DNA of 64,000 bases from Jatrophihabitans sp. (GTDB taxonomy: Bacteria > Actinomycetota > Actinomycetes > Mycobacteriales > Jatrophihabitantaceae). Both the position numbers and the translations under genes were made by a program. Numbering within the stretch: the first letter of the stretch is position 1; the number at the start of each line of letters is the position of its first letter. The stretch lies in the NCBI GenBank assembly GCA_036389035.1, contig DASVQQ010000011.1, positions 186,001 through 250,000 of the forward strand, in the 5' to 3' direction. The notes beneath the pieces were generated by a model. It was not told the DNA's origin and searched no databases. It saw only the letters and a list, made by a program, of their open reading frames with translations. Shown one piece after another: positions 8,364 to 56,650 of the stretch.

Positions 8364-8752
8364 CTGTCGGGTGGATTCCGGCGCACCGGAGGCAGCCCGG
8401 TCCCGCCGATCAGCGGGGTCAGCTCCGACGCGGGCGGCGGCGCTGCCTCCAGCGGCCCGCAGTGCCGCCAGCGACGGCCCGCGCCGGCTGCCGGCCGGGG
8501 CCAGGCCGAGCGGTCCTCGGGCAGGTCGAAACGCTGCACCGTCCGGTATTCCCGGATCGCGTCGGGGTCACCGGAGGGGTCCAGCAGCCGGGCCGGCACC
8601 CAGGCCGAGGTGTGCAGGTAGCCGTTGACCCCGTCGGCGAAGCTGCCGTAGGTCCGCCAGGAGACCAGGCCCCACCAGCTGCCCCCGCTGCGACCCCAGG
8701 CATGCAGGTCGGCCAGTTGGCGCACCAGCCGTACCACGACCCGGGGAGTCAT
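8360..8752 (-). CDS. Hypothetical protein downstream of a LexA box
   Basis: 130 residues if started at ATG 8752 (GCGGG upstream); starts at 8815 or 9043 would run through the LexA box and into the divergent gene. The N-terminal 70 residues look folded (VRLVRQLADLHAWGRSGG, WWGLVSWRTYGSFADGVNGY), and the C-terminal half is Pro/Ala-rich. No family assigned. A SOS-box-like palindrome ends 10 bases upstream of the start, suggesting DNA-damage control. Its stop overlaps the UbiA stop (convergent). Confidence 0.6.
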   Translation of the reverse strand: MTPRVVVRLVRQLADLHAWGRSGGSWWGLVSWRTYGSFADGVNGYLHTSAWVPARLLDPSGDPDAIREYRTVQRFDLPEDRSAWPRPAAGAGRRWRHCGPLEAAPPPASELTPLIGGTGLPPVRRNPPDS

Positions 8753-8762
8753 CCCGCAAGTA

Positions 8763-8778
8763 TCGAACAGATATTCGA
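8763..8778. promoter_or_regulatory. Putative LexA (SOS) box
   Basis: TCGAAC-AGAT-ATTCGA matches 11 of 12 defined positions of the actinobacterial LexA box TCGAAC-N4-GTTCGA. It lies 11 bases before ATG 8752 (minus strand) and about 68 bases before ATG 8846 (plus strand), so the minus-strand gene is the more likely target. Confidence 0.65.
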
Positions 8779-8845
8779 ATAGGCCAAGCCGGCGCACCGC
8801 CGTGCCGCTGACCATCGCGGATCCGACGCACTGGACACTGAGGTC

Positions 8846-9574
8846 ATGGCGGAATGGGAATTCACTCGGGGCGCGCCACCATTGCGGCCTCCGATCGTCT
8901 TCGATCAGCAGTGGCGCAATGTCAGCTTTCTGCACTGGCCGGTCGAGCCGTCCACGATTACCCACCTGTTTCCACCCGGTTGCCGCCCTGATGTGGTCGA
9001 GGGCCGCAGTTACGTCGGCCTGGTGCCTTTTCACTTGCGCCACGCCGGCCTCGGCCGCGCCGGTCGAATTCCCTACTTCGGCTCATTCGCCGAAACCAAC
9101 ATCCGGCTGTACTCGGTGGACGATGCCGGCCGGCACGGCGTCGTCTTCTGCTCGCTGGACACCGAGCGGCTGGCGATCGTCCCGCTCGCCCGACTGCTGT
9201 TCGGGGTGCCCTACACCTGGTCGCGCATGCGGGTGCACGAGCAGGCCGGGGGCATCTGGCGTTACGAGGCACGGCGCCGATGGCCCCGCCGCGGGCTGGC
9301 GAGCACGGTGTCGATCCGGGTGACGGGACCGGTCGAACCCACCCCGTTGGAGCAGTGGCTCACCGCGCGGTGGGGCCTGCACGCCGTGATCCGCGGCCGC
9401 ACCCGCTGGGTACCGAATGCCCACGACCCGTGGCCGCTGCATCAGGCCGAGGTGCTGGAACTGCGGGACGACCTGCTGGCGGCCTCCGGAGTGGCGCCAA
9501 CCGGTGACCAGCTGCGCGCCCTGTGGTCACCGGGGGTGCGGGCCCGGTTCGGCAGGCCGGTCGCGCTGGACTGA
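8846..9574 (+). CDS. DUF2071 (YqjF-like) protein
   Basis: 242 residues. It begins with the pattern RPPIVFDQQWRNVSFLHWPV and continues with GLVPFHLRHAGLG, PYFGSFAETNIRLYSVDDAG and GVPYTW, characteristic of the DUF2071/YqjF family, which has an acetoacetate decarboxylase-like beta-cone fold. Biochemical role is not established for the family. Cytosolic, no signal peptide. It is divergent from the gene at 8752 and convergent with the APH gene. Confidence 0.85.
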   Translation: MAEWEFTRGAPPLRPPIVFDQQWRNVSFLHWPVEPSTITHLFPPGCRPDVVEGRSYVGLVPFHLRHAGLGRAGRIPYFGSFAETNIRLYSVDDAGRHGVVFCSLDTERLAIVPLARLLFGVPYTWSRMRVHEQAGGIWRYEARRRWPRRGLASTVSIRVTGPVEPTPLEQWLTARWGLHAVIRGRTRWVPNAHDPWPLHQAEVLELRDDLLAASGVAPTGDQLRALWSPGVRARFGRPVALD

Positions 9575-9621
9575 GCGCTGAGGTGGCCGTACTCGCACCG
9601 CGCCGATCACCCGAAACCCCG

Positions 9622-9674
9622 GGTCTCAGGGACCCAGGTCCCACAGCCGGTCTCAGGGACCCAGGTCCCACAGC
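9622..9674. repeat. 27-bp tandem duplication at a gene 3' end
   Basis: Two near-identical 27-base units begin at 9622 and 9649 (each starts GGTCTCAGGGACCCAGG). The unit includes the last codons and stop of the APH gene, so the region beyond its stop is a copy of its tail. Confidence 0.9.
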
Positions 9675-10444
9675 AGCCGGTAGAACCGCATCCGGACCGG
9701 ATCAGCCTCGATGCCGTAGGCCGCCAGCAACTCCTGCGACCAGCCCGGGCCGTAGTTCCACTCGGTGCTCCAGGTCGCGATCGCCAGATCGGCCCACCGG
9801 TCAGCGACCCCGAGCGAGCCGAGGTCGACGTGGCCGGTCCAGCTCCCCTCGACGCTCACCAGCGTGTTCGGCGCGCACGAGTCACCATGACAGACCACCA
9901 ACTGGTCGATGCCCGGCGGCTGTGACAGCGCGTCCAGGGCCGCCTCGACACTCAACCCCCGATGCTCGGGATGCCAGCCGGCCGGATCCAGCTGACCGGC
10001 CCGGCGCCGGGCGTCGGCGATCCGGTCCTGAACCGACCAGGAGAACGGGCAGTCGGGCACCGGCAACGCGGTGTGCAGCGCCCGCAGCCCGGCGCCGATG
10101 GCTCGCACCGCACGGACCGGGTCAGCCAGCCACCGGTCCGCGACAGCGTTGTCACCGGGCAGCGCGGTGGTGATGATCCACGATCCGGCCGCGTCCCGGC
10201 CCTGGTCCAGCACCGCCGGCACCGGAGTGAACCGGGCGGCCCAACGAAGCCGGGCCACCTCGCGGTCGAGGTCGATGCCACTGCTCACCGGCGTCCACTT
10301 GAGAAAGTGCCGCCCGGGCCCGTCGCCGACCTCGAAGGTCCGGCCGCCGACCTCGTTGACCCACGCCAGCCGCACCGGCTTGCCTGCCGCTATCGCCGTC
10401 CGGACCGGCGACGGCAATCGCAGCTCCCCGTCGCGGTTCAACAC
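9653..10444 (-). CDS. Aminoglycoside phosphotransferase (APH) family kinase
   Basis: 263 residues starting with GTG 10444. Brenner motif VCHGDSCAPNTL (catalytic Asp and Asn) and GHVDLGSLGVADRWADLA (metal-binding Asp) are those of APH(3')-type kinases; the C-terminal YGPGWSQELLAAYGIEAD segment fits too. Such enzymes phosphorylate aminoglycosides, but in actinomycetes many are housekeeping small-molecule kinases, so a resistance role is not shown. A 27-bp tandem duplication copies its final codons. Confidence 0.85.
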   Translation of the reverse strand: MLNRDGELRLPSPVRTAIAAGKPVRLAWVNEVGGRTFEVGDGPGRHFLKWTPVSSGIDLDREVARLRWAARFTPVPAVLDQGRDAAGSWIITTALPGDNAVADRWLADPVRAVRAIGAGLRALHTALPVPDCPFSWSVQDRIADARRRAGQLDPAGWHPEHRGLSVEAALDALSQPPGIDQLVVCHGDSCAPNTLVSVEGSWTGHVDLGSLGVADRWADLAIATWSTEWNYGPGWSQELLAAYGIEADPVRMRFYRLLWDLGP

Positions 10445-44797: not shown

Positions 44798-46051
44798 TCA
44801 GACCAGCTCGCCGCGCTTCCTGCTCAGGTAGGCACGTTCGGCGGAGTTCTGGGTGACGGCGATGGCGGCGTCGTAAGCGTCCTTCGCTTCGGCGGTCCGG
44901 CCGAGCCTGCGGAGGAAGTCCGCGCGGGCGACGCGCCATGCGTGGTAGCCCGTGAGAGGCAGGCGGTCGACCAGGGTGAGGGCGACCTGCGGGCCGTCCA
45001 GCTCCGCGACCGCGACCGCGCGGTTGAGCGCGACGATCGGCGACGGGTCCAGCCGGGTCAGCTGGTCATACAGCGCGACCACCTGCGACCAGTCCGTGTC
45101 CGCGGCGGTGGGGGCGTCGGTGTGGACGGCGTTGATCGCGGCCAGGATTTGGTAGCGGCCCGGCCGGTTGATCGCGAGGCACTCGCGGACCAGGCCGTGC
45201 CCCTCGGCGATCAGCCCGCGGTCCCAGCCGGCGCGATCCTGCTCGCCCAGCGGGACCAGCTGACCGTCGCGGACGCGGGCCTCCCGCCGGGCCTCGGTGA
45301 GCAGCAGCAGCCCGAGCAGACCGGTCACCTCCGGCTCCCCGGGGAGCAGTTGTCGCAAGATCCGGGTCAGCCGGATGGCCTCGCCCGTGAGCTCGGCGCG
45401 CACCGGTTCGCCGTCGCCGGTGGCGAGGTAGCCCTCGTTGAACACCAGGAACAGCACCGCCAGCACGCCGCCGAGCCGCTCGGGAAGGTCGGTGGCCTCG
45501 GGCACCCGGTAGGGCACCTTCGCCGCCGCGATCTTCTTCTTTGCCCGGGTGATCCGCTGCGCCATCGTGGTCTCGGGCACCAGGAACGCCTGGGCGATCT
45601 CGGCCACGGTCAACCCGCCGAGGAGGCGGAGCGTCAGCGCGATCCGCGCCTCCGGTGGCAGCGCCGGGTGGCAGCAGGTGAACAGCAGCCGCAATCGGTC
45701 GTCCTCGACGGGCCCGGTGGGCTCGTGGGGGGTGTCGTCGTGGTACATCAATGCCGCCTGGTGCTTGGCGTCGCGCTGCTTCTCGCGGCGGATCCGGTCG
45801 ATCGCGCGGTTGCTCGCGGTGGTGGTGAGCCAGCCGCCGGCGTTGGGAGGCACACCGGACTCCGGCCATTTCACCAGCGCGGTCACCAGCGCCTCGCCCG
45901 CCGCTTCCTCCGCGATGTCGATGTCACCGAAGCGGCGGACGAGCGAGGCGATCAGGCGGCCGTACTCCTCGCGGAAGACCCGCTCTACGGCCGCCGTTTC
46001 GCTCCGCATCGACGCGTATGTGTTGTGATCGCCGGGGCGGTCGATACCCAT
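44798..46051 (-). CDS. ECF sigma factor of the YciI-associated (ECF42-like) group
   Basis: 417 residues. Sigma region 2 (REEYGRLIASLVRRFGDIDI, EEAAGEALVTALVKWPESGV, GWLTTTASNRAIDRIRREKQ) and region 4 (LPPEARIALTLRLLGGLTVA, LVPETTMAQRITRAKKKI) are followed by a long C-terminal domain (about 190-415, TPR-like/DUF6596). That layout and an adjacent DGPF/YciI gene define this ECF class, which works without a classical anti-sigma factor. A start at 46009 (MRSETAAVERVF) is also plausible. Confidence 0.9.
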   Translation of the reverse strand: MGIDRPGDHNTYASMRSETAAVERVFREEYGRLIASLVRRFGDIDIAEEAAGEALVTALVKWPESGVPPNAGGWLTTTASNRAIDRIRREKQRDAKHQAALMYHDDTPHEPTGPVEDDRLRLLFTCCHPALPPEARIALTLRLLGGLTVAEIAQAFLVPETTMAQRITRAKKKIAAAKVPYRVPEATDLPERLGGVLAVLFLVFNEGYLATGDGEPVRAELTGEAIRLTRILRQLLPGEPEVTGLLGLLLLTEARREARVRDGQLVPLGEQDRAGWDRGLIAEGHGLVRECLAINRPGRYQILAAINAVHTDAPTAADTDWSQVVALYDQLTRLDPSPIVALNRAVAVAELDGPQVALTLVDRLPLTGYHAWRVARADFLRRLGRTAEAKDAYDAAIAVTQNSAERAYLSRKRGELV

Positions 46052-46082
46052 ACCCGTCCGCCGATCAGTCGTTCGGGCCGGC

Positions 46083-46445
46083 TCAGGCGAGGCCGTCGAA
46101 CGGACGGACCTCGACCTTGCCCTGGCAGGCCTTGGACCCCTCGGCCGCGAGCTTGAGCGCCACGTCGAGGTCGGGCGCGTCGATGATCCAGAAACCCCCG
46201 ATGACCTCTTTGGTCTCGAGGTAGGGACCGTCGGTCATCACCGGCGTCTCACCCTGGCCGTCGACGACGGTCGCGGTGGACGCCGACTTGAGCCCGCCGG
46301 CGAAGACCCAGTAGCCCTCGGCGCGAAGCTTGTCATTGAAGGCTTCGGTCGCGGCGAACGCCGCCTCCATCGCCTCCTTGGAGCCGTAGTTGCCGTACTC
46401 CTCCCTCTCGACGGGGCCGTGCACGGATAACAGGTACTGCGTCAT
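46083..46445 (-). CDS. YciI/DGPF family protein
   Basis: 120 residues from ATG 46445 with GGAGAA upstream. MTQYLLSVHG start, VVDGQGETPVMTDGPYLETK and IGGFWIIDAPDLDVALKLAA, ending KVEVRPFDGLA. This is the DGPF-type YciI-like family always seen beside this ECF class; it may sense or act upstream of the sigma factor. The sigma gene follows 31 bases downstream. Confidence 0.9.
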   Translation of the reverse strand: MTQYLLSVHGPVEREEYGNYGSKEAMEAAFAATEAFNDKLRAEGYWVFAGGLKSASTATVVDGQGETPVMTDGPYLETKEVIGGFWIIDAPDLDVALKLAAEGSKACQGKVEVRPFDGLA

Positions 46446-46644
46446 CCCACTTCTCCTCAGTTCCGGGCGGTCCCCATGACCGCCTTCCACTTCACCACGA
46501 ACGGCATCGCGCCGATACGACAACCTGCCACCGGATGTCTTGCCGAAAATTTTTCTCGCGACCTGTCGAATCCGTACCCGCTCGTTCGTGAACGTGGTGT
46601 GAGCGGGTCACACCGGGTGATCCGCCGAGGAAACGGAGCCCGAC

Positions 46645-47133
46645 ATGTCCACCACCACGCAGGCCATCACCGCCCAGGTCCCCACCACCCAGGTTCCCAC
46701 CGCGCAGGTCCGCACCCGCCCGATCTCCGGCGCACCGGCTGCGGCGGCCGAGCGGCAGCCGGTCTGGAAGCACGGCGTCGCCGCGGCCGTCGCGGCCTCG
46801 GTCGCCACCACCGCCCTCGCGGCGGTCGCGTCGGCCGCCGGGGTCTCGTTCGCCGACAGCACCGGCGCGAGCATCCCGCTCGCCGGGTTCGCGCAGTTGA
46901 CGCTGTTCTTCTCCCTCATCGGCGTCGGCATCGCCGCCGTCCTGGCGCGCCGGGCGCGTCGGCCGCGGGCCACGTTCGTGCGGACGGCCCTCGCCCTGAC
47001 CGTGCTGTCCTTCGTCCCGGACGTGACGTTCGGCTTCGACACCGCCACCGCCGCCACCCTGATCGCGCTGCACATCGTCGCCGCGGCGATCGTGGTGCCG
47101 ACCCTAGCGGGACGGCTTGCGCACACCCGCTGA
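46645..47133 (+). CDS. DUF6069 family membrane protein
   Basis: 162 residues. A 45-residue Thr/Gln/Pro-rich N-terminus, then four membrane helices (about 48-68, 78-100, 112-128, 136-156) with the pattern IPLAGFAQLTLFFSLIGVGI and SFVPDVTFGFDTATAATLIA. Matches DUF6069, small actinobacterial membrane proteins of unknown function, often near sigma genes. AAACGGAG lies before ATG 46645. Confidence 0.82.
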   Translation: MSTTTQAITAQVPTTQVPTAQVRTRPISGAPAAAAERQPVWKHGVAAAVAASVATTALAAVASAAGVSFADSTGASIPLAGFAQLTLFFSLIGVGIAAVLARRARRPRATFVRTALALTVLSFVPDVTFGFDTATAATLIALHIVAAAIVVPTLAGRLAHTR

Positions 47134-47257
47134 CCAGGCTCGAACCGTGCCGTCCAGGGTCCCTCACCAGGTCCAGCGAGCTGCGACCCAACACAGGCGC
47201 AAATGCATCTAACATGCAATCTCGACATACTGCCCCCATGCGGCCTACGCTGCCGCC

Positions 47258-47647
47258 ATGAGAAATCTCGTCCGTGTTGCGGCAGCCGGTATCGCCCTAG
47301 CAACCGTGCTGCTGAGCAGCCCCGTCACCGCAGCTGCGGCTGGCACCATGCAACGCGTCGGCGGAGCGGGTTGTTGGAGTTCTGGCAGTAACACATTTCA
47401 GTGCTTCGACGAGTTCACCGGAGGCACTGCTCCCTTTACCGCTACCGGCTCAACCAGTAATAGCTGGGCCTCCATCAATCAGATAACCATCGGACATGAC
47501 TTCGCCGGCGACCGCTTCGAAGTTCGGGTTCAAGGTCATTGCACATACGGCAAAGCCTTCAGGGTCACTCTGAACGTCAGTGACTCCAGCGGCCAGACTG
47601 TGACGTTGACGAGGCACATGTCCTGCGGTCCGACCTCAGAGATCTGA
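47258..47647 (+). CDS. Small secreted protein
   Basis: 129 residues. Cleavable signal peptide at residues 1-27 (basic MRNLVR, then hydrophobic stretch, ending AAAAG). The mature part is Ser/Thr/Gly-rich, predicted beta, with four cysteines (GCWSSGS, FQCFDEF, GHCTYGK, MSCGP) that could form two disulfides. No family recognised. Convergent with the RiPP operon, 73 bases between stops. Confidence 0.75.
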   Translation: MRNLVRVAAAGIALATVLLSSPVTAAAAGTMQRVGGAGCWSSGSNTFQCFDEFTGGTAPFTATGSTSNSWASINQITIGHDFAGDRFEVRVQGHCTYGKAFRVTLNVSDSSGQTVTLTRHMSCGPTSEI

Positions 47648-47720
47648 AGTCCCGCCTGAACTCAGACCGCGTGCACCCAGGCCCGCGTGGCCGGCAGGCT
47701 AGGCCATCCGCTCGTGCGGG

Positions 47721-49688
47721 CTACCCCGGCGGCAGAACGGCCTCCGGGCGGCCGTTCCGATCGCCCGCGGCCGCTGTTGCGATCGCAGGACGCCGGACGG
47801 CGCGCCGGCTCAACCTGGCGGCTCCGCCGGGGGTGGCTACGGCGTAGACGTCGCCGTCCAGATCGAGGACCGTCAAGCCGAGTGACCCGGCGAGGATCCT
47901 GAGCGCTGCCAGGTCCAAGCCCCACGCCGGATCGCCACCGTCAGCGGAGACCACCCAGCCCAGGCCGACCCGGTCGGTGAGCAGGAATCCCGTAGGGGCC
48001 AGCGAGGTCGAGTACCAGTCGAGCATGGTGAGGACGTGCGTGAGGCAGCACGCGAAGGTCGTGAGGTTGTTGTCGATGACGACGTCCAGCGGGCGCGGCG
48101 CGTCGGCCCAGGGCTGGTACTTGTTCCGCAGGAGCAGGCGGTAGTTGTCCAGCCCCAGCGCGTTCCCCCGGCGCACCTCGCCGGGCGAGATCGTGATGCC
48201 GACGATCTCCCGCGTCCGGGACGCGAAGGCCTGCGCGAGCTGGGAGCCGCCGACTCCGACGTGCAACAGCCTGTCCTCGGACCCGACGAGCTTTGCCAGC
48301 CACGCCTCGATCCTGCGCTGGTCAGGCGTCGGCTCGAAGGACGACCAGTCCCGCCAGCCCTCGACCTCGTCGACCCCCGGATGGTCGTCCTGCCCGCAGT
48401 CCTTCGGCAGGGACCGGAACCGGTGCGAGGACTGCAGCGCGCCGACCGCCCCCACCACTGCCTGCGATGTCCCGGTCATGGCTCCTCCTGTCAGACAGTG
48501 GTGGATGGAAGGCTGCCGTCTCTCGGCTGCGCCGCCGCTGCCCGTGGCCGCCGCGACGATCACCTCGCAGGCGCGTCGCGTCCCGCCGGACTGCCTGCAG
48601 TGCTCGGCGAAGTCCTGCAGTCCTCGCGCGACGGCGGGGGCCTGGGCCGCTCGAGCCGCGCGCCGCAGGGCTTCACCGTCAAGTCGGTCGAGTGCGACGG
48701 CCAGGCCCAGGCCCAGGGTCTCCACCCGCGCCGCGGTCCGCTGGTTCTCGGGGGTCCTCGGCACGACGACGAGCGGCACCCCGAGGAACGCGGCTTCCTG
48801 GACCGAGTTCATGCCTCCGTGGGTGACGAACACGCTCGCGCGCGCGAGGACGTCCAGCTGGTCCACCTGCGCCTGGACGGTCCAGTTAGCGGGCGCCAGC
48901 CGGCTGAGTTCGGGGGCTGCCGCGCCGACGGCCAGGACGACCTCCCAGTCCTCCGGCGGAAAGGCGCTCAGGCAGGCCTGCATCAGTCCGGCGTCGCCGG
49001 GCAGCACGGATCCGGTGGAGACGAAGGCTGTCCGCGTCGCTGCTGCTCGCCGGGGAAGCGTCCTGGGAAGGCAGGGGCCGACGAAGGTGTATGAGTCGTC
49101 GAAGTCGTCGGCGTCGGCTTGCAGCGCCCTGGCGACGGTGACGATGTTGTGCCGGTCGCCGGCCACGAAGACGTCCTGCGGACGCAGGCTCGTCAGGCCA
49201 TGACCCGCGTTCGCCTCGACGGACCGGGCGTAGCCGCGCAGCGCCCTTCGCAGCTCCCGGCCGGGCCTGTCGAAGCCCGCGGCGCCGATCCTGGTGGGTG
49301 CTGACTCGGCTCGCAGGGCGTAGGTCGTCAGGACCTGGATCGACGGGATGCTCAGGCGCTGCGCCACCCAACGGCCCCAGGGCGCGGAGCGGTCATAGAC
49401 CAGGGCGTCCGCCCGGACCGCGGCGACGGCGTCCACCAGCTCGGGAAGGCACTGCTGCGCCGCGGTCAGAGCCTGCACCAGGATCTCGGCCCGGTCGGAC
49501 GCGCCGCCGGTGGCCACCGTGACCGGATCGAGGATGGGCCGGAAGTCGATGCCCGGAGCGCTGCGGTGCTGGGCGCCCGGGGGCACGAAGTAGGCAACGC
49601 GCGCGCCGTCGGCCTGCAGCTGCGCGGCGATGGGGAGTGTCGGGTTGATGTGACCGGCCGCGGCGACGTTGAGAAAAGCGATCCTCAT
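47721..49688 (-). CDS. Fused glycosyltransferase-methyltransferase open frame of the cittilin-like cluster
   Basis: 655 codons from ATG 49688 (ATGA overlap with the PIG-L stop). Residues 1-403: family-1 (MGT/GT-B) glycosyltransferase starting MRIAFLNVAAAGHINPTLPI, with acceptor-side VYDRSAPWGRWVAQ and the nucleotide-sugar motif THGGMNSVQEAAFLGVPLVV. Residues 404-655: class I SAM methyltransferase with motif I LLHVGVGGSQLAQAF. The methyltransferase part has its own ATG at 48479 preceded by AGGAGG, as expected for a separate gene (252 residues, 47721-48479). In another frame TGA lies just before that site, so a small indel may have removed the glycosyltransferase stop. Either one fused protein or two products. 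Confidence 0.82.
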   Translation of the reverse strand: MRIAFLNVAAAGHINPTLPIAAQLQADGARVAYFVPPGAQHRSAPGIDFRPILDPVTVATGGASDRAEILVQALTAAQQCLPELVDAVAAVRADALVYDRSAPWGRWVAQRLSIPSIQVLTTYALRAESAPTRIGAAGFDRPGRELRRALRGYARSVEANAGHGLTSLRPQDVFVAGDRHNIVTVARALQADADDFDDSYTFVGPCLPRTLPRRAAATRTAFVSTGSVLPGDAGLMQACLSAFPPEDWEVVLAVGAAAPELSRLAPANWTVQAQVDQLDVLARASVFVTHGGMNSVQEAAFLGVPLVVVPRTPENQRTAARVETLGLGLAVALDRLDGEALRRAARAAQAPAVARGLQDFAEHCRQSGGTRRACEVIVAAATGSGGAAERRQPSIHHCLTGGAMTGTSQAVVGAVGALQSSHRFRSLPKDCGQDDHPGVDEVEGWRDWSSFEPTPDQRRIEAWLAKLVGSEDRLLHVGVGGSQLAQAFASRTREIVGITISPGEVRRGNALGLDNYRLLLRNKYQPWADAPRPLDVVIDNNLTTFACCLTHVLTMLDWYSTSLAPTGFLLTDRVGLGWVVSADGGDPAWGLDLAALRILAGSLGLTVLDLDGDVYAVATPGGAARLSRRAVRRPAIATAAAGDRNGRPEAVLPPG

Positions 49689-50443
49689 CTGCCGACGTCC
49701 TCGCCGACGGTCCAGCGGGCTTCGAAGCGGTCGACGGCACGGCGGCGCAACTCTCCGGAGGGGCCGTCCAGCAGCGGGAACTGGCTGCGGTACCTCGCCA
49801 GGCACCGCAGCTTGGCCGAGGCGGTCTCGGCCGTCAGGGCTTCGTGCTCGCAGCCTGTCACGCGCGGACGGGAGGCGATGCCGGGGAGGGTCTCGGGCAG
49901 GTCGCGTCCGCAGGAGCCGTCCCGACACTCCAGCGGCCAGCCCTGGTCGGCTGCGTACGGCAGGTCCGCGTAGAGGCGCAGGCTCGCCATGCCGGTGAAG
50001 GCGCGCAGTGCGGCGTCGCGAACGAGGACGTGGTCCGGGTGCTGTCCGAAGCCGGCCGGGGCATGGACGTCCGCCCCTTCGACGTGCTGCTCGAGGCGCC
50101 GGGCGAGTGACCGGGTGGTCAGCCGGCTCGTGCGGTACTGCTCGTCGAGCAGCGGAAGGTGCACCGCCCGGACCCCGAGACCGGCCATCACGTCGAGGTC
50201 GTCGGCGGCGCGTTCGGCCAGGTACTCGTCGGAGCGCGAGACACCCTGCGAAGCGTCCCATCTGCCCACTGTCCCGGGCCCGGGGACGCCGGCGAACACG
50301 GTCACGACGGTCGTGGCCGTGCCCTGGCGGGACAGCACGGCGAAGCAGCTCAGGACCGCGTCGTCGAGGTGGGGTGACAGCACGACAACCGGGGGCTGCG
50401 GTTCGACAACCGGGGGCGGCAGCTCGCTCGGGCGCCGGTTCAC
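49685..50443 (-). CDS. PIG-L family deacetylase of the cittilin-like cluster
   Basis: 252 residues from GTG 50443 (GTGA overlap with the P450 stop). Zinc motif SPHLDDAVLSCFAVL (His25, Asp27, Asp28) replaces the usual AHPDDE; a second motif GFGQHPDHVLVRDAA supplies the third ligand and catalytic His. LmbE/PIG-L enzymes deacetylate N-acetylglucosaminyl groups (MshB, glycopeptide tailoring). With the adjacent glycosyltransferase this suggests a sugar that is added as GlcNAc and then deacetylated (inference). Confidence 0.88.
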   Translation of the reverse strand: MNRRPSELPPPVVEPQPPVVVLSPHLDDAVLSCFAVLSRQGTATTVVTVFAGVPGPGTVGRWDASQGVSRSDEYLAERAADDLDVMAGLGVRAVHLPLLDEQYRTSRLTTRSLARRLEQHVEGADVHAPAGFGQHPDHVLVRDAALRAFTGMASLRLYADLPYAADQGWPLECRDGSCGRDLPETLPGIASRPRVTGCEHEALTAETASAKLRCLARYRSQFPLLDGPSGELRRRAVDRFEARWTVGEDVGR

Positions 50444-51810
50444 AGCGCCTGCGGTCCGGGTCGGCCACCACGGGTGTCGTCGACGCGCGCGCGGACGCCC
50501 AGGGGCTGCAGGGCGAGGGCGGGGCGCGGTCGCACCGCGTCGGCCCCGACCAGGCTCAGGCGGGTTTTCCGCAGGAGGCAGCGGAGGATTCCGGCCAGCT
50601 CCTGGGTCGCGAGGGCGGCGCCGATGCACGCGCGCGGCCCGGAGCCGTACGGGATGAACGCGTGGCGCGGCGGCGGCTCGCCGAACCAGCGCTCGGGGAG
50701 GAATCGCTCCGGGTCGGGGTACCAGCGCCCGTCCCGGTGGGTGACCCACTGGCTGACCGCCACGGTCGTCCCGGCCGGGACGTCGAAGTCCCCGAGCCGG
50801 CTCTCCTTGACCGCGACCCGGCTGGTGACCCAAGCCGGCGGGTAGAGGCGCATGGACTCCTTGAGAACGGCGTCGAGCAACGACGGCTCGTCCTCGTCGG
50901 CGAGGCTCTGCCTGAGCCGTGCTTCGAGCTGAGGGTGCGTTCCCAGCAGATACAGCGTCCAGGTGAGCGCGTCGGCGGTGGTCTCGTAGCCGGACATGAT
51001 CAGCGTCGCCAGCTCGTCGCGCACCGCGGCAGCGCTGAGGGCGGGATCCTCGTCGAGGAGTAGGGCCAGGGCATTGCGCTCCTGGCGACCCGCGTCCGCG
51101 TTCTCGACGAGACTTCCGAGCAACCCGTCCAGCCTGCCGAGGGAACGTGCCAGCTGCCGGTTCGTCGGCGTCGGGACCCAGGCCGGGAAGCGGAACGGGG
51201 TGGCGGTCAGCCGCATGATCGCATCGACTGCCGCCTTGACGGCCGCGGCGCCGTCGCCGAGCGGCGCGCCCAGCAGGGCCCGGGTGCCGATCCGGAGCGT
51301 GAGGTCAGACATGGCCTGGTGGACGTCGATGACCTGGCCCTGCTGCCATGACGCCACTGCCCGCGAGGTCTCCTCCTCGACGGCGCCGGCATGGCGCAGC
51401 ACCTGCTCGCGGGCGAAGGCCGGCGACAGCCGCTGGCGCTTGACGCGCCAGTCATCGCCCTCGCTGTTCATCATGGCCCGCGGGAAACCGGCGTGGGAGC
51501 GGCGGCGTACGCCCGGCCGGATCTTCACGAACGCGCCCTGCCGGTCCACCAGAACGGTCGCGATGTCGCGCGGGTGGACGACCAGGTAATTGCTCGGCGC
51601 GATCCGGACCACGTCGCCGTACTCGGCCGCGCAGCGGACCAGGAAGCTGAGGGGGTCAGCGGCGTACTCGGGCCGGGTGCCGGAGAAGCGCCCGCCGCGC
51701 GGTCCGGGAGGCAGGGTGGACGCTCCGGGAGGCAGGGTGGACGGTCCGGGAAGCAGGGTTGACGGTCCGGGAGGGAGCGTCGGCGCAGGAGTGAGGCGTC
51801 CTTCCCGCAT
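50440..51810 (-). CDS. Cytochrome P450, candidate peptide crosslinking enzyme (CitB-like)
   Basis: 456 residues from ATG 51810 with GAAGGAG upstream. I-helix SGYETT (273-278), ExxR Glu318-Arg321, haem loop FIPYGSGPRACIGAALA with Cys395. Unusual: residues 11-38 are four heptads TLPPGPS-like, encoded by a 21-bp tandem repeat. Located 109 bases downstream of a peptide gene ending YIYY, it is the likely enzyme for Tyr-Tyr biaryl and ether crosslinks, as CitB does in cittilin biosynthesis. Coupled to the deacetylase gene by GTGA. Confidence 0.9.
   Translation of the reverse strand: MREGRLTPAPTLPPGPSTLLPGPSTLPPGASTLPPGPRGGRFSGTRPEYAADPLSFLVRCAAEYGDVVRIAPSNYLVVHPRDIATVLVDRQGAFVKIRPGVRRRSHAGFPRAMMNSEGDDWRVKRQRLSPAFAREQVLRHAGAVEEETSRAVASWQQGQVIDVHQAMSDLTLRIGTRALLGAPLGDGAAAVKAAVDAIMRLTATPFRFPAWVPTPTNRQLARSLGRLDGLLGSLVENADAGRQERNALALLLDEDPALSAAAVRDELATLIMSGYETTADALTWTLYLLGTHPQLEARLRQSLADEDEPSLLDAVLKESMRLYPPAWVTSRVAVKESRLGDFDVPAGTTVAVSQWVTHRDGRWYPDPERFLPERWFGEPPPRHAFIPYGSGPRACIGAALATQELAGILRCLLRKTRLSLVGADAVRPRPALALQPLGVRARVDDTRGGRPGPQAL
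51701..51784. repeat. Four 21-bp tandem units in the P450 5' end
   Basis: Units begin at 51701, 51722, 51743 and 51764 (GGTCCGGGAGGCAGGGTGGA type; the first three differ at 1-3 positions, the last is more diverged). They encode four Pro-rich heptads at the N-terminus of the P450. Confidence 0.9.
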
Positions 51811-51867
51811 GGGTGCTCCTTCGGGCCGCCGGTGAGGCCGGAGCCAAGGGTGAAGTGCGGACGCCGA

Positions 51868-51895
51868 AGCCCCGGCCTGTGCACAGGCCGGGGCT
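51868..51895. terminator. 28-bp perfect hairpin between precursor and P450 genes
   Basis: AGCCCCGGCCTGTG followed directly by its complement, 24 bases after the precursor stop. A partial terminator or 3' stabiliser here would give more precursor mRNA than enzyme mRNA, common in RiPP operons. Confidence 0.8.
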
Positions 51896-51919
51896 GCGGT
51901 AGGCCCTGACGGACTGGGT

Positions 51920-52003
51920 CTAGTAATAGATGTACGGCGTGGTGAGCGGGTCGCCACTGCCCAAGCCGAGGGCGGCCGCAAGCCGGTAGGCAAGCTTCTT
52001 CAT
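51920..52003 (-). CDS. Cittilin-type RiPP precursor peptide, core YIYY
   Basis: 27 residues, start ATG 52003, stop TAG 51920-51922. It opens MKKLAYRLAAALGLG, a short basic-hydrophobic leader, and ends TPYIYY. A perfect AGGAGGTGA lies eight bases before the start, the strongest ribosome site in the window. The tetrapeptide YIYY is the core of cittilin A, whose Myxococcus precursor CitA is, as I recall, also 27 residues with YIYY at the C-terminus, with a P450 (CitB) and a methyltransferase (CitC). Here P450, PIG-L deacetylase, glycosyltransferase and methyltransferase follow. No dedicated protease is nearby. Confidence 0.88.
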   Translation of the reverse strand: MKKLAYRLAAALGLGSGDPLTTPYIYY

Positions 52004-52257
52004 CACGAATCACCTCCTGCCAGGTGCTGGTTCCGCCTGAGCTGTTCCCAAACGGACATATCGACCATACCAATATGATTGGCTCAGGTCTAGAGCCCAC
52101 TGCGGCAGGGCTGTGGGACGACCGCTACTACCCCGCAGGACAGCTGCCAGGTTGGGAGCTGCCCGGATGTCGGACGGTCGATGATCTCTATCTCGTTCTC
52201 AATTCCGGCTTCGGGCTAAGGGGAGGCGGATAGCCAGCGGCCCGGCGCCGCCTGTCG
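52004..52257. promoter_or_regulatory. Upstream region of the RiPP operon
   Basis: About 250 bases; the AT-richest patch is 52055-52085. On the minus strand TATGGT (within GGTATGGTCG) is a possible -10, and CATATTGG...CGATATG forms a loose inverted repeat that may be an operator. The 69-codon plus frame at 52024 has no ribosome site and is not called. Confidence 0.35.
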
Positions 52258-52545
52258 TCATACGGGGTTGGCGACGAGTTCGACTTGATAGCCATCGGTA
52301 TTAGTGAGGTAGGCGGCGTAGTGGTCGGGTCCACCTGCATGCGGATGCTGGTCCGCGAACAACAGAGTCCAACCGTTGTTCACGGCATGGTTGACGATGT
52401 CGTCGACGTGGCTGCGGTCGCCGGCGTGAAAGGCGAGGTGATTCAAGCCGGGACGGCGTCGGTCGTGTTCCCCGGCGCAGCCGTGTCAGGCGCGCCCCTC
52501 TCCAAGCCCTGTCGCGCAGGGGTCCAATTTCAATCAGCACCACGG
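52258..52545 (-). pseudogene. VOC/glyoxalase remnant
   Basis: Residues LNHLAFHAGDRSHVDDIV, WTLLFADQHPHAGGPDHYAA and TDGYQVELVANP are the C-terminal half of a VOC protein. The expected N-terminal half is absent: in this frame a TGA precedes, and an IEIGP segment lies in another frame upstream. No ATG; only a TTG at 52446. Most likely a truncated, frameshifted relic. Confidence 0.6.
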
Positions 52546-52637
52546 GGTCATTATTCGATCAGCACTGGTGCATCAGGTGGTCTCTGCAACGCCGGGTGCG
52601 CTAGTCCCTCGGCGGGGCACGGCGCAGCGCTTCGCGT

Positions 52638-53093
52638 TCACTGTCGCGGGGCGGGGTGCGCCAAGGGGCCACTCTTCGCGAGGGCGAGGCAGAGTCCGAA
52701 CATGATGAGGGTGAACGGCCCCCAGCCAAAGCGCTCCCAAGGGCTGGAAGAGGCGAAGTTCATCAACGCACCCAGCCCTAGGAGCCCAACGAGCACCCAG
52801 GTTCCGACCCGAGCGACCGCCGGCGGCACAGGAACGAGGGCACGACCACCCCTTGCCAGCACGACCAAGGCGGCCAAGAACCAGACGAGAGCGGCGAGAC
52901 CGGTCACGAGCCGTACCGCGCCAGGAAGGCTCCCCGGGTTCGTTCCACCCATGGCGGCCACGCCGAACGGCGCCCCGAGCGTCAGCGCGGCTTGAAATGC
53001 CACCACGATCAGCAGGCCGATCGCGAGGACGATGGCAACGCGGGGTCGATCGGGTCGGTCCTTGGTTCGTCGCGCTGTCGCCTCGGTGGTCAT
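52638..53093 (-). CDS. Small four-helix membrane protein
   Basis: 151 residues from ATG 53093. Helices about 22-42 (VAIVLAIGLLIVVAFQAALT), 65-85 (VTGLAALVWFLAALVVLARG), 98-118 and 126-142. No family recognised with certainty. Start at 53147 is possible but has a polar extension. Third gene after the membrane protein and NAD-binding protein genes on the same strand, 32 bases after the latter's stop. Confidence 0.72.
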   Translation of the reverse strand: MTTEATARRTKDRPDRPRVAIVLAIGLLIVVAFQAALTLGAPFGVAAMGGTNPGSLPGAVRLVTGLAALVWFLAALVVLARGGRALVPVPPAVARVGTWVLVGLLGLGALMNFASSSPWERFGWGPFTLIMFGLCLALAKSGPLAHPAPRQ

Positions 53094-53125
53094 TGGTTTC
53101 CTTCGGTCGTGAGAGCCACGTGCCG

Positions 53126-53863
53126 TCATGTGGATTCCTGGAGCCACTGGTCGAACGTCTGGGTTCCGCGTGGTCCAGTGTTAGTCGGCAGGAGGGCCCC
53201 GGTGCGCATGACCCGTCCGGTGGCTCCTGGCAGCGGCAGGGTGATCACGAGTGGCTGATGACCTCGGGCGGACGCGAGGCGGCGTGCCATGTCCGGGACT
53301 CGTTCCTCTCGGGGGCCGGCGAGTTCTGCCGCCATACCAACGGGCGGGGCGGTTGCGAGGCGGACCAGCTCGTTGGCGACGTCTTGGGCGGCCACGGGTT
53401 GGCTGAGCATCGAGGGGACTACTGCGACGGGGCCGCCGCCTAGCATTTGCGCGGCGAACTCGTGGAACTGGGTTGCGCGCAGGATGGTCCACGGGACGGG
53501 ACCCTGACGTACGAGGTCCTCCTGTGCGAGCTTGGCTTGGTAGTAGCCCAGACCGACACGGTCGATCCCGACGATCGAGAGCAGCACGTGATGTTTGACC
53601 CCGTGGCGCTTCTCGGCGTCGAGCAGGTGGCGGGTCGAGGTCTCGAAGAACGCGGTGGCGCGGCGGCGGTTCTGGGTGACGATGTTGGTGACGTCGATGA
53701 CGTCGTCCACGCCCTCGAGGGCCTGGTCGAGCCCAGTTCCGGTGGTCAGGTCGATCCCCTTCGATCGGGCGATGACGATCGGCTCGGCGCCGAGGCGACG
53801 CACGCTCTCGACAACTCGGCGACCGACCCAGCCGGTGCCGCCTGCAATTGCGATCGTCTTCAT
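53126..53863 (-). CDS. NAD(P)-binding (NmrA/SDR_a5-like) protein
   Basis: 245 residues. Atypical-SDR Rossmann start MKTIAIAGGTGWVGRRVVES, VDDVIDVTNIVTQNRRRATA, LLSIVGIDRVGLGYYQAKLA (YxxxK-like) and TILRATQFHEFAAQML. Members are NAD(P)H-dependent reductases or redox sensors of quinone/flavin type. Its ATG overlaps the stop of the upstream membrane protein gene (ATGA). A long frame upstream to 54652 is not coding. Confidence 0.87.
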   Translation of the reverse strand: MKTIAIAGGTGWVGRRVVESVRRLGAEPIVIARSKGIDLTTGTGLDQALEGVDDVIDVTNIVTQNRRRATAFFETSTRHLLDAEKRHGVKHHVLLSIVGIDRVGLGYYQAKLAQEDLVRQGPVPWTILRATQFHEFAAQMLGGGPVAVVPSMLSQPVAAQDVANELVRLATAPPVGMAAELAGPREERVPDMARRLASARGHQPLVITLPLPGATGRVMRTGALLPTNTGPRGTQTFDQWLQEST

Positions 53864-54309
53864 CGGATCTTCTCCTTCTTGGGGGTGGGGTGTCCTGCTG
53901 TGGCACTGCCATTGCTGCGTAGCAGCACGAGGATGGCGGCGCCGAGGGCGGTGAACGTGAGGGGGGCCAAGCTGGCTGACCACTCGACGATGGAGAACCC
54001 GTGCCGATGGGTGGCGTGGAACGCGAGGTGTGGCAGTCCGAAGGCGAGCCAGGCCCAGCCGAGGACGCGAAGGACGCCGGGGTCCCCTTTCACAGCGGCC
54101 CATCCGGAAAAGACCAGGAGCGCGACGTACAAGCCGCCCACGTCTCTGACGAGGTGCTCGTTGAACGGCCCCAGTGGCGCGACCCAGGATTGTCCGAACC
54201 CTGGGAAGCTGGTGAAGAAGGAGTGGGGCCAGGCCATGGCCCAGAGCCCGACATAGGCGGCGGTGGCAGCTAGCGCCCAAGCGATGCCACGAGCGATTGA
54301 GATGTTCAT
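53860..54309 (-). CDS. Four-helix membrane protein
   Basis: 149 residues with helices about 9-27, 57-75, 80-98 and 112-135. Includes FNEHLVRDVGGLYVALLVFS and WLAFGLPHLAFHATHRHGFS, which gives a His-rich pair of helix ends. Resembles small DoxX-like/DUF4345-type membrane proteins but not firmly assigned. First of three genes on the minus strand. Confidence 0.75.
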   Translation of the reverse strand: MNISIARGIAWALAATAAYVGLWAMAWPHSFFTSFPGFGQSWVAPLGPFNEHLVRDVGGLYVALLVFSGWAAVKGDPGVLRVLGWAWLAFGLPHLAFHATHRHGFSIVEWSASLAPLTFTALGAAILVLLRSNGSATAGHPTPKKEKIR

Positions 54310-54312
54310 CTT

Positions 54313-54746
54313 TCATCCTTTGCGATTCGGCAGCGCCTGCGCTGTCGGCGCGGGGCCGAAGGGGCCGAACGAGGGTGATGGGAAGCGGTGGCTGGTCACG
54401 CGCGGCACCCGCTGCCCAGATTGCTGTCGCTGCCGTGGAGTCGGTCCATGGGAAGCGGAGATAGTCGCCAGGGCGAGGTCTCTTCGCGCCCATCGCCAAC
54501 AGGCTCTTGACCCACCGAGACCCACCAGGTTGCCAGCGGTGGGTTCCAGAGCTGTCAGCTCGTAATGGATCGGTCCATGACGACCGCGGACGCCGACCAC
54601 CAAGGGCCCATCGAACCGCAAGGGGGTACCTCGGCGGGCCACAGCCGATCACCGGGACCTGACAGCGTCATCGAGAGGTCCTCCACCCGTTCGGGGTCAG
54701 CTGCGATCCGGCGCTCGTGGACGTTGCAGATCCTCGTGATGCTCAT
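54313..54746 (-). pseudogene. Frameshifted SRPBCC family gene
   Basis: From ATG 54746 the frame reads MSITRICNVHERRIAADPER and then DRLWPAEVPP. It then leaves the family pattern, which resumes in the next frame as LRFDGPLVVGVRGRHGPIHY and ELTALEP. The switch lies in the five-G run 54622-54626, where one extra base would restore the frame. After ELTALEP the family pattern stops, so the 3' part also looks lost. Overlaps the DUF4386 gene's last 50 bases. Confidence 0.7.
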
Positions 54747-55530
54747 TGCGCGCCTGAGTTCCGGACGCTTGTAGCAACGATGTCCGGGCCGGCCTCGGGA
54801 GGTGCGGTGGCCTGCCGGTGTTCTGAGTCGAGGGGGCGCTGTCCGGCATCACACCTCGGAACCCCTTGACCAGCAGGAAGGAGCCGGCCGCGACCTCGAA
54901 CAGTCCGCCGGGAATCGACATCGCGAGCCCGACCCCGTACCCAGAAAGTTCCAGGACACTTCCCAGGGCGAAGATCGCGTAACCCGCGATCCCGTACGTG
55001 GCCAGGAAACGCGGCAGCAAACCGGACTTCAGCAGCGTCCAGCAGAAGAAGATGCTCCCGATGCCCAGCGCTGTCATCGCGACCGAGTACGCGGACTCAC
55101 TGTTTTCGACGAAGGTCCGTGCCAGGCCGGATAGCTCAGAGTCATCAACGTTCGCCGTGTCCGCACTCCCCCAGTCGAACAGCACCAGGCTTAGCGTGCC
55201 CAGCGGCGCGAGGGCCAACAGCACCGCCTCCACGATACGGGTGGCGAGATAGGTGTTGGCGGTACGGCGGTGCTCACGCCGCAAGACCTGGAACGCCAGC
55301 GCACCGATCGTGACGACAGCGACCGAGTTGAGGAGCAGCAGTGTCGCGCCTGCACAGAGCTGTCCGAGCGAATCGGCGTTCTCGGGGACTGCCGGGGCGT
55401 CGCCGGTGGAGGAGAAGTCGAGGAAAATAGCGCCGCCATAGAGGAAGAAGGCGGAGATGAAGAGCCCACCCACAAGGCGGCCTGTGGCTCTACGGGTCAT
55501 GGACACTCGCGGTGCCGCAGATGTGGACAT
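54697..55530 (-). CDS. DUF4386 family membrane protein
   Basis: 277 residues from ATG 55530. Six membrane helices (about 16-38, 62-80, 96-118, 148-168, 178-198, 204-224) with the DUF4386 pattern ATGRLVGGLFISAFFLYGGA, LEALAPL-type helix 3 and FLATYGIAGYAIFALGSVLE. The polar C-terminal 45 residues overlap the SRPBCC relic in another frame. Start overlaps the thioesterase stop (TGATG). Confidence 0.87.
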   Translation of the reverse strand: MSTSAAPRVSMTRRATGRLVGGLFISAFFLYGGAIFLDFSSTGDAPAVPENADSLGQLCAGATLLLLNSVAVVTIGALAFQVLRREHRRTANTYLATRIVEAVLLALAPLGTLSLVLFDWGSADTANVDDSELSGLARTFVENSESAYSVAMTALGIGSIFFCWTLLKSGLLPRFLATYGIAGYAIFALGSVLELSGYGVGLAMSIPGGLFEVAAGSFLLVKGFRGVMPDSAPSTQNTGRPPHLPRPARTSLLQASGTQARNEHHEDLQRPRAPDRS

Positions 55531-56024
55531 CAGGGCCTGCGGAGATTGCAGGTGCAGCCAGCGATGGCAATGACTCGCTGGTCGGCGTCGACGACGCGGG
55601 CCGAGGCGATCATGGTGTTCTTGCCCGGATGGACGACCTCGCCGGTGCACAGGAGACGTCCGCTCGACAGCCGCGCCGGGCGCAGGAACCGGACGTTCAT
55701 CTCGGAGGTCACGTAGCCCACCGCGGCCGGCAGCAGCGAGTGCACTGCACACCCCATGGCGGTGTCCAGCATGGCGGCAAGTACGCCACCGTGGATCATT
55801 CCGAACGGGTTGAGGTGGAACTCTTCGGGGTCCAGTGTGAAGGTGACTTTGCCGTCCTCTGCCTCGACCGGCTCGATGGCCAAGGTGTTCAGAATCGGAG
55901 GAACCGGTAGCGTCCCTGCGCCGATAGCACGCAGGAGGGTGAGACCGTCCTGGGTGGCGCCGGCGACAAGAGTAGGCGTGGGATCCTGCCAGGCGTAGGT
56001 GCGCTCTCGGGTGTCGATCTTCAT
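55530..56024 (-). CDS. PaaI-type hotdog thioesterase
   Basis: 164 residues from ATG 56024 (AGGAGA upstream). Hotdog helix and active-site region HLNPFGMIHGGVLAAMLDTA, then YVTSEMNVRFLRPARLSSGR and GKNTMIASARVVDADQRVIA. Such proteins hydrolyse acyl-CoA thioesters. Second gene of an operon of DUF2867, thioesterase, DUF4386 and SRPBCC relic, joined by one- to three-base overlaps. Confidence 0.9.
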   Translation of the reverse strand: MKIDTRERTYAWQDPTPTLVAGATQDGLTLLRAIGAGTLPVPPILNTLAIEPVEAEDGKVTFTLDPEEFHLNPFGMIHGGVLAAMLDTAMGCAVHSLLPAAVGYVTSEMNVRFLRPARLSSGRLLCTGEVVHPGKNTMIASARVVDADQRVIAIAGCTCNLRRP

Positions 56025-56650
56025 CAGTTCTCCTGTGATTGTGCGCCGTGGCACGGGACGCTCGTTGCGGCAGGTCTGCAGAGGCGCAGGACCGCCGGGT
56101 TTGTGTTGGTGAGTGTTGGGACTGCCAACGCGCGTGCCGCTCGCGCCAGCATGCTGCGGACAACGAGCGGGTGGATCCTGCGGACCAGCGCGAAGTACGC
56201 GGCTCCGCGTCGGCTACGCAACTGGACGAGTGTGGTGACCACAACGCGGTTACGCTCGACAAGCACCGATGCGCGGAAGCTCAGGTGACTTTGATCGACC
56301 CCCAGCAGTACCTCGTCGGCCGTCCTCGACAGGGTGTCGAAGACGTGTCTGCCGCCGCGTTCGATGCCGACCACGCGAACCAGCAACTCGCGCACCCCGA
56401 ACAACACCCGGATCCAAGGCGGTGGCCCGTGGAAAACGGCGTCGGCCCACTCCTGGGGGCCGCGACGCGGCGCATCTCTCAGGACCTTGACGGCGAAAGC
56501 ATCCGACCAATCGACGTGCGGCAGCGCATGAGCGAGCAGCGGCGAACTCGGCAACGAAACCTGGTAGGGGCGAGGCGAGCGAGCCCGCCGAACGCAGCGG
56601 TGCTGCAGATACTCGGCACCCGACCGCCGAGACTGGATGTGAGTGATCAT
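56024..56650 (-). CDS. DUF2867 family protein
   Basis: 208 residues from ATG 56650 (GGAGGAG upstream). The DUF2867 domain spans about 45-175: HALPHVDWSDAFAVKVLRDA, PPWIRVLFGVRELLVRVVGI, ADEVLLGVDQSHLSFRASVL and LVRRIHPLVVRSMLARAARA. Function unknown; family members often sit with SDR or TetR genes. A TetR operator lies between it and the divergent regulator. Confidence 0.87.
   Translation of the reverse strand: MITHIQSRRSGAEYLQHRCVRRARSPRPYQVSLPSSPLLAHALPHVDWSDAFAVKVLRDAPRRGPQEWADAVFHGPPPWIRVLFGVRELLVRVVGIERGGRHVFDTLSRTADEVLLGVDQSHLSFRASVLVERNRVVVTTLVQLRSRRGAAYFALVRRIHPLVVRSMLARAARALAVPTLTNTNPAVLRLCRPAATSVPCHGAQSQEN

Follow-up and report, generated by a model that had tools for sequence, protein, structure and literature searches.

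A cittilin-type gene cluster of Jatrophihabitans sp. with predicted amino-sugar tailoring of a crosslinked YIYY peptide

In a stretch of 64,000 nucleotides of Jatrophihabitans sp. (assembly GCA_036389035.1, contig DASVQQ010000011.1; hereafter the window, meaning this whole stretch), a cluster of five genes was analyzed. Judged by its reading frames, it occupies 47721-52003 on the minus strand and encodes, in this order, a precursor peptide, a cytochrome P450, a PIG-L deacetylase, a family-1 glycosyltransferase (GT1) and a predicted methyltransferase. Peptide, gene families and gene order had been described in an original prediction made from the sequence, and this description was confirmed with corrections concerning the frames and the methyltransferase. 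The genes had been said to lie in overlapping frames, which holds for two junctions: the stop codon of the P450 gene (50440-51810, 456 aa) overlaps the GTG start of the PIG-L gene (49685-50443, 252 aa) in GTGA, and the glycosyltransferase gene (48480-49688) likewise begins with an ATG that overlaps the stop codon of PIG-L, in ATGA. The glycosyltransferase and methyltransferase genes (the latter at 47721-48479, 252 aa), in contrast, share one open frame of 656 codons including the stop, with no stop codon between them, and the methyltransferase is also provided with an AGGAGG and, at 48479, an ATG of its own.

The precursor gene (51920-52003, minus strand, stop codon included) encodes 27 residues, MKKLAYRLAAALGLGSGDPLTTPYIYY, and its start is preceded by the ribosome site AGGAGGTGA, as originally predicted. 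The peptide ends in TPYIYY, with the predicted core YIYY after the proline. It matched the NCBIfam model NF038373 'cittilin family RiPP precursor' (RiPP, ribosomally synthesized and post-translationally modified peptide) with E 1.7e-11 and 44.3 bits (cut-off 34). This locus was the only match in two genome sets, one of 150 relatives and one of 396 sampled from the phylum, both of which include the window's own genome. A chance match of the peptide was ruled out by the score above the cut-off and by this sole occurrence. The core is the same as that of the precursor of Myxococcus xanthus AM003 (L026), MKKALYSLAVLMRFARADKLSAPYIYY. It had also been proposed that the precursor would escape gene calling; the peptide is indeed short, but since a public model exists, annotation with NF038373 need not miss it.

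The P450 (Pfam p450, E 1.5e-59) is encoded just downstream of the precursor gene. Relatives were collected from one genome per species with two peptide patterns, which gave 145 confirmed loci, of which the best 80 were kept; P450 proteins of Pendulispora, Brenneria and Longimicrobium, which were found by protein search, are not among the 80. A 27-residue frame of the same length and layout lies directly upstream of the P450 in 31 of the 80 loci. Thirty of these had a precursor match of at least 9.7 bits; the frame of L040 scored 6.0 bits, no higher than noise, and was included because its length, position and ending fit. A tree was computed from 87 P450s with a quick method, and long branches (L036 and L040 among them) were flagged. 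A branch with SH-aLRT support of 100 separates the window, the 31 precursor-linked loci, the locus L036 and six metagenomic proteins from 48 loci without a found precursor; Myxococcus lies on the precursor-linked side. The label 'without a found precursor' means no precursor match in the model search and nothing convincing in a short-frame check of 49 loci, in which frames of L055, L056, L058 and L086 were set aside by eye as not cittilin-like and only that of L036 was kept. The window and the six metagenomic P450s form one set (support 100). Together with L036 and 16 Nocardiopsis-group rows, these seven make up a set of 24 (support 98), with an inner order that the tree does not resolve. The window P450 is 51% identical to that of M. 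xanthus (L026), and in plasmid records no P450 exceeded 35.4% identity (five haloarchaeal records at E 1e-50).

A P450 lying outside the cittilin enzymes had been named as an outcome that would speak against the original prediction; in this tree, which held no biarylitide P450s, that outcome did not occur. The assignment of the locus to the cittilin type is upheld by the match above the model cut-off, by the core shared with M. xanthus AM003 and by the grouping of the P450 with the precursor-linked ones, and a bicyclic product with biaryl and aryl-ether bonds is predicted.

The PIG-L deacetylase was recognized by Pfam with E 1.9e-11. Both by sequence and by predicted fold, its nearest solved relatives are Orf2* and Dbv21, the deacetylases of the teicoplanin and A40926 pseudoaglycones. 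The active-site residues named for these enzymes (metal ligands, general base and substrate residues) are all kept in the window protein (9/9), and likewise in all ten closest rows of the alignment, window included. Since no domain of a nonribosomal peptide synthetase (NRPS) was found by a Pfam scan of the 12 reading frames at 44798-56054, the gene does not lie within a glycopeptide NRPS cluster as those of the Orf2*/Dbv21 class do, and the enzyme is described here as working like Orf2*/Dbv21, not as being one of them. A role as a mycothiol gene was considered and rejected: five other PIG-L genes elsewhere in the genome have higher family scores, and both its fold and its sequence indicate kinship with Orf2*/Dbv21.

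The glycosyltransferase exceeded the cut-offs of both Pfam EryCIII-like_C (E 1.7e-10) and UDPGT. It is MGT/OleD/YjiC-like, scoring 240.3 bits against TIGR01426 (MGT; cut-off 260) and 125.9 bits (E 2.2e-36) against an OleI-type model (cut-off 700). The methyltransferase gave no Pfam match; its original identification as an S-adenosylmethionine (SAM) methyltransferase stands on the predicted fold, which is of the Rossmann-type class I. One search at E 1e-5 yielded 17 homologues, one of them in Novosphingobium lentum, and 30 columns of the alignment are invariant among 15 rows. The five closest homologues are separate proteins of 229-250 residues, found in a search whose length range excludes fused glycosyltransferase-methyltransferase proteins. 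Plasmid records held no methyltransferase match.

Close homologues of three of the enzymes were found by protein searches (up to 120 matches listed, proteins of 0.55 to 1.75 times the query length). For PIG-L, nine homologues of 74-84% identity were detected apart from its own entry, the next by score having 43% among the matches listed. Six homologues of 84-94% were found for the P450, the next having 55% or less among the matches listed, and five of 80-85% for the methyltransferase, followed by proteins of 50-54%. Compared by the length of the longest contig, homologues of all three enzymes lie on metagenomic contigs of equal length (12970 and 10003), those of the P450 and PIG-L on contigs of equal length 4193 and 5207, those of the P450 and the methyltransferase on contigs of equal length 39873, and those of PIG-L and the methyltransferase on contigs of equal length 71211, the last named Jatrophihabitantaceae bacterium, a metagenome-assembled genome (MAG). 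From these equal lengths we infer that the P450, PIG-L and methyltransferase genes recur together in relatives, and the set therefore looks inherited.

Tailoring genes were compared by tblastn at E 1e-5 over 32 other loci (the 31 precursor-linked ones and L036) with flanks of unequal length. Neither PIG-L nor the methyltransferase of the window had a match in any of them (0/32), some flanks being short; in L014 and L022, where only ~1.3 kb and ~2.8 kb follow the P450, the absence is weak for this reason. None of the 31 related clusters examined, all from named genomes, showed the combination of crosslinking and amino-sugar genes, and PIG-L appears to be special to the window's lineage within the loci sampled with the two peptide patterns, some with short flanks. 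The M. xanthus methyltransferase, which was taken as CitC, matched in all five Myxococcota loci. The Nocardiopsis group comprises 16 loci; in seven a sulfotransferase adjoins the P450 (PF17784 in L010, L021 and L027; tblastn for L024, L025, L031 and L052), and sulfated cittilin-type products are predicted for these seven. Eight mechanical reading frames that follow the P450 in other loci of this group had no Pfam match, which leaves nine of the 16 without an assigned gene at this place. Glycosyltransferase matches were obtained in two other loci, in line with the P450 in L029 and divergent from it in L040. Since the methyltransferase, sulfotransferase and glycosyltransferase matches differ between loci, the core seems to be tailored differently from lineage to lineage. 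Not every locus has such genes: in 17 of the 31, the flanks examined showed no match to CitC or to a glycosyltransferase and no adjacent sulfotransferase.

Several of these loci deserve a description of their own. L029:9848-13640 of Amycolatopsis antarctica holds a PYVYY precursor, a P450, a transporter-like gene (recognized by eye) and a glycosyltransferase, with overlapping stops and starts among the last three genes and no PIG-L match, and is a second candidate for a glycosylated cittilin-type cluster. L040 of Herpetosiphon geysericola has its 27-residue frame, ending in PVYRYY and scoring at the noise level, at 9884-9967, followed by a P450 of the same group (8548-9705), with the divergent glycosyltransferase gene upstream. 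In L036, an uncultured Acidovorax MAG, a 26-residue frame, MKTVYHSLAKLAHALRGNRIGHRYIY, lies ~150 bases upstream of the P450 match; the P450 groups with the cittilin ones on a long branch, the candidate precursor has no proline before the core, and the frame is possibly a betaproteobacterial cittilin-like precursor. Seven Streptomyces loci have the core PYSYY, and in three of them (L030, L032 and L034) an ABC transporter gene directly follows the P450.

We consider it probable that the five genes together make a Tyr-crosslinked YIYY peptide carrying glucosamine, which would arise by transfer of N-acetylglucosamine (GlcNAc) and subsequent deacetylation; a methyl group would be added as well. In cittilin, CitB makes one biaryl and one aryl-ether bond, and the window P450 would join the three core tyrosines by one bond of each kind (-4 H). 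A prolyl peptidase has a role in cittilin maturation, and here a host peptidase, for which two PF02897 genes are candidates, would cleave after the proline and release the four-residue core. The glycosyltransferase would then attach GlcNAc to a free hydroxyl group, probably the phenol of a tyrosine, PIG-L would remove the acetyl group and leave a free amine, and the methyltransferase would add a methyl either to a phenol, as in cittilin A, or to the new amine. The calculated [M+H]+ values are 617.2606 for the crosslinked YIYY peptide, 631.2762 with a methyl, 820.3400 with HexNAc (834.356 with HexNAc and methyl), 778.3294 with HexN and 792.3451 with HexN and methyl. Gene content, gene order, overlaps, family assignments and conserved active-site residues are read from the sequence itself, and we infer the order of the steps from leader removal to methylation, the identity of the sugar and its attachment site. 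The amino-sugar branch of the original prediction gains from the kinship of PIG-L to Orf2*/Dbv21 and from the recurrence of homologues of the P450, PIG-L and the methyltransferase on contigs of equal length, but its product, sugar and site are still proposed ones.

A number of observations weigh against this interpretation. In the profile alignment, extra residues of Dbv21 stand opposite a gap in PIG-L. A capping loop of the teicoplanin type seems to be shortened or absent, and the substrate may therefore differ from that of Orf2*/Dbv21. PIG-L proteins are numerous (665 at E 1e-10), those outside the close group being 36-52% identical among the matches listed, and since 15 aligned homologues from outside the close group keep most of the same active-site residues, these residues alone do not fix the substrate. 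At E 1e-30, PIG-L was not found in 23 other genomes of its own genus and family. The glycosyltransferase has OleD/YjiC/Kcn28-type enzymes as nearest solved relatives, its sequence fixes neither donor sugar nor acceptor, and no glycopeptide Gtf (GtfA/B/D) was among the best 60 of its 64 matches. Its conservation would follow from its position between two recurring genes, and the recurrence proposed from metagenomes covers the P450, PIG-L and the methyltransferase, the precursor lying outside this view. For the methyltransferase, the fold matches are of equal rank and give no indication of the acceptor. A tblastn search with CitC at E 1e-5 gave no match in the window, and equivalence of the two methyltransferases was rejected.

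Alternatively, the peptide may be glycosylated while PIG-L acts earlier or elsewhere, for instance as an amidase or on the nucleotide-bound sugar donor; the final sugar on the peptide would then be something other than deacetylated GlcNAc. PIG-L/LmbE enzymes have varied substrates, as stated in the available text of PMC4101496, and the seemingly shortened capping loop would agree with this, as would the homologues outside the cluster, which, among the matches listed, carry no stated role beyond family names. The nearest solved relatives by sequence and fold, however, act on a glycosylated crosslinked peptide, with all nine residues kept, and we regard this possibility as unlikely. If the precursor and the P450 made plain cittilin and the three downstream genes belonged to an unrelated pathway, the locus would resemble the 17 precursor-linked loci in which no tailoring match was found; the GTGA and ATGA overlaps as well as the homologues of the P450, PIG-L and the methyltransferase on metagenomic contigs of equal length argue against this, and it is quite improbable.

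Macrolide glycosyltransferases reversibly mask their product for self-protection. The window glycosyltransferase, being MGT-like by its scores against TIGR01426 and the OleI-type model, might do the same, in which case the sugar would not be part of the active compound. It is coupled, however, to a predicted deacetylase and not to a glycosidase, and since cittilins and biarylitides, in the available text of PMC8708641, are reported to lack antimicrobial activity, there is no obvious need for self-protection; this explanation is very improbable. The preferred reading, a crosslinked peptide bearing glucosamine, can also be sharpened. In this form a RiPP would have converged on lipoglycopeptide tailoring, with GlcNAc on a phenol, deacetylation of the Orf2*/Dbv21 type and N-methylation of the amine by a methyltransferase of an undescribed family lying in the glycosyltransferase frame; by analogy, this series of modifications would be NodC/NodB/NodS-like. 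Taken jointly, these specifications seem rather unlikely.

A perfect 12-bp hairpin with a loop of 4 (51868-51895, minus strand; AGCCCCGGCCTG), which was absent from the original prediction, lies between the precursor and P450 genes and is a possible attenuator (z -2.8 over 101 bases). The ~100 bases 3' of the precursor were folded in 32 loci, counting the window, with 100 shuffles each; z ranged from -4.5 to 0.6 and was <= -2 in 22 of them. This folding may control the ratio of precursor to enzymes. Seven neighbouring frames were found at 44798-56054. Five have Pfam assignments (sigma factor, YCII, NAD-binding protein, DUF4345 and thioesterase) and two gave no match; neither a transporter nor a protease was recognized by Pfam among the seven. 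The sigma factor (DUF6596) and YCII pair, at 44798-46523, lies within ~7 kb of the cittilin P450. The same pair is found near the P450 in the Myxococcus loci L019 and L026 and not in the other loci compared. Three DUF6596 copies are present in the window's genome and two and three in the genomes of L019 and L026, respectively, and the pairing beside the cittilin P450 may be chance.

If the proposal is true, the cationic amino-sugar form would be, within the literature searched, the first sugar-bearing product of the cittilin type: no glycosylated cittilin is described in the available text of the open papers that this search covered. Cittilins and biarylitides are also reported to have no known role (available text of PMC8708641), and such a form would help to test what cittilin-type peptides do. 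The loci compared suggest that the small crosslinked core bears various tails, namely methyl in Myxococcota, a predicted sulfate in part of the Nocardiopsis group, a predicted sugar in Amycolatopsis and a predicted amino sugar in the window. If confirmed, the five-gene cluster of 4.3 kb would be a short route to glycosylated crosslinked peptides.

Among known systems, the cittilin A/B pathway of M. xanthus (CitA, CitB and CitC) shares with the window the 27-residue precursor, YIYY after a proline and a P450 of the same group. In M. xanthus, however, a methyltransferase (Methyltransf_25/TPMT) just follows the P450 and neither PIG-L nor glycosyltransferase had a match, whereas the window has both. 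Because CitC has no match in the window, and thus no CitC-type methyltransferase was found beside the P450, the cluster was not assigned to the strict citA-citB-citC pathway. A. antarctica (L029) likewise has a 27-residue precursor, P450 and glycosyltransferase in one run of genes, but its glycosyltransferase is of another subtype (SsfS6/CalG1-like), and neither the window methyltransferase nor CitC had a match there. Atropopeptides are P450-crosslinked RiPPs as well, with precursors and P450s that are set apart from those of the window by description only. Their clusters frequently include glycosyltransferases for tailoring, so that a glycosyltransferase beside P450 RiPP genes is already known, and no deacetylase is named in the main text available (PMC11450843); the coupled deacetylase is new within the literature searched. 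Biarylitides and myxarylin are short P450-crosslinked peptides, myxarylin also having a methyltransferase (available text of PMC8708641), but biarylitides derive from a five-residue precursor, unlike the 27 residues ending in YIYY found here. The same 2021 paper, in the text available, reports cittilin and biarylitide clusters outside myxobacteria without a methyltransferase in genome data (PMC8708641); the window, with a methyltransferase of a different kind, would depart from this pattern. Closest in its predicted tailoring is the GlcNAc branch of teicoplanin and A40926, in which a crosslinked aromatic peptide, a GT1 glycosyltransferase and a PIG-L enzyme with the same nine residues are likewise combined. 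There, according to the available text of PMC8987122, a non-ribosomal heptapeptide is modified by a Gtf-type glycosyltransferase, a deacetylase with a capping loop and then an acyltransferase, whereas the window combines a ribosomal tetrapeptide core with an MGT-like glycosyltransferase and a predicted methyltransferase.

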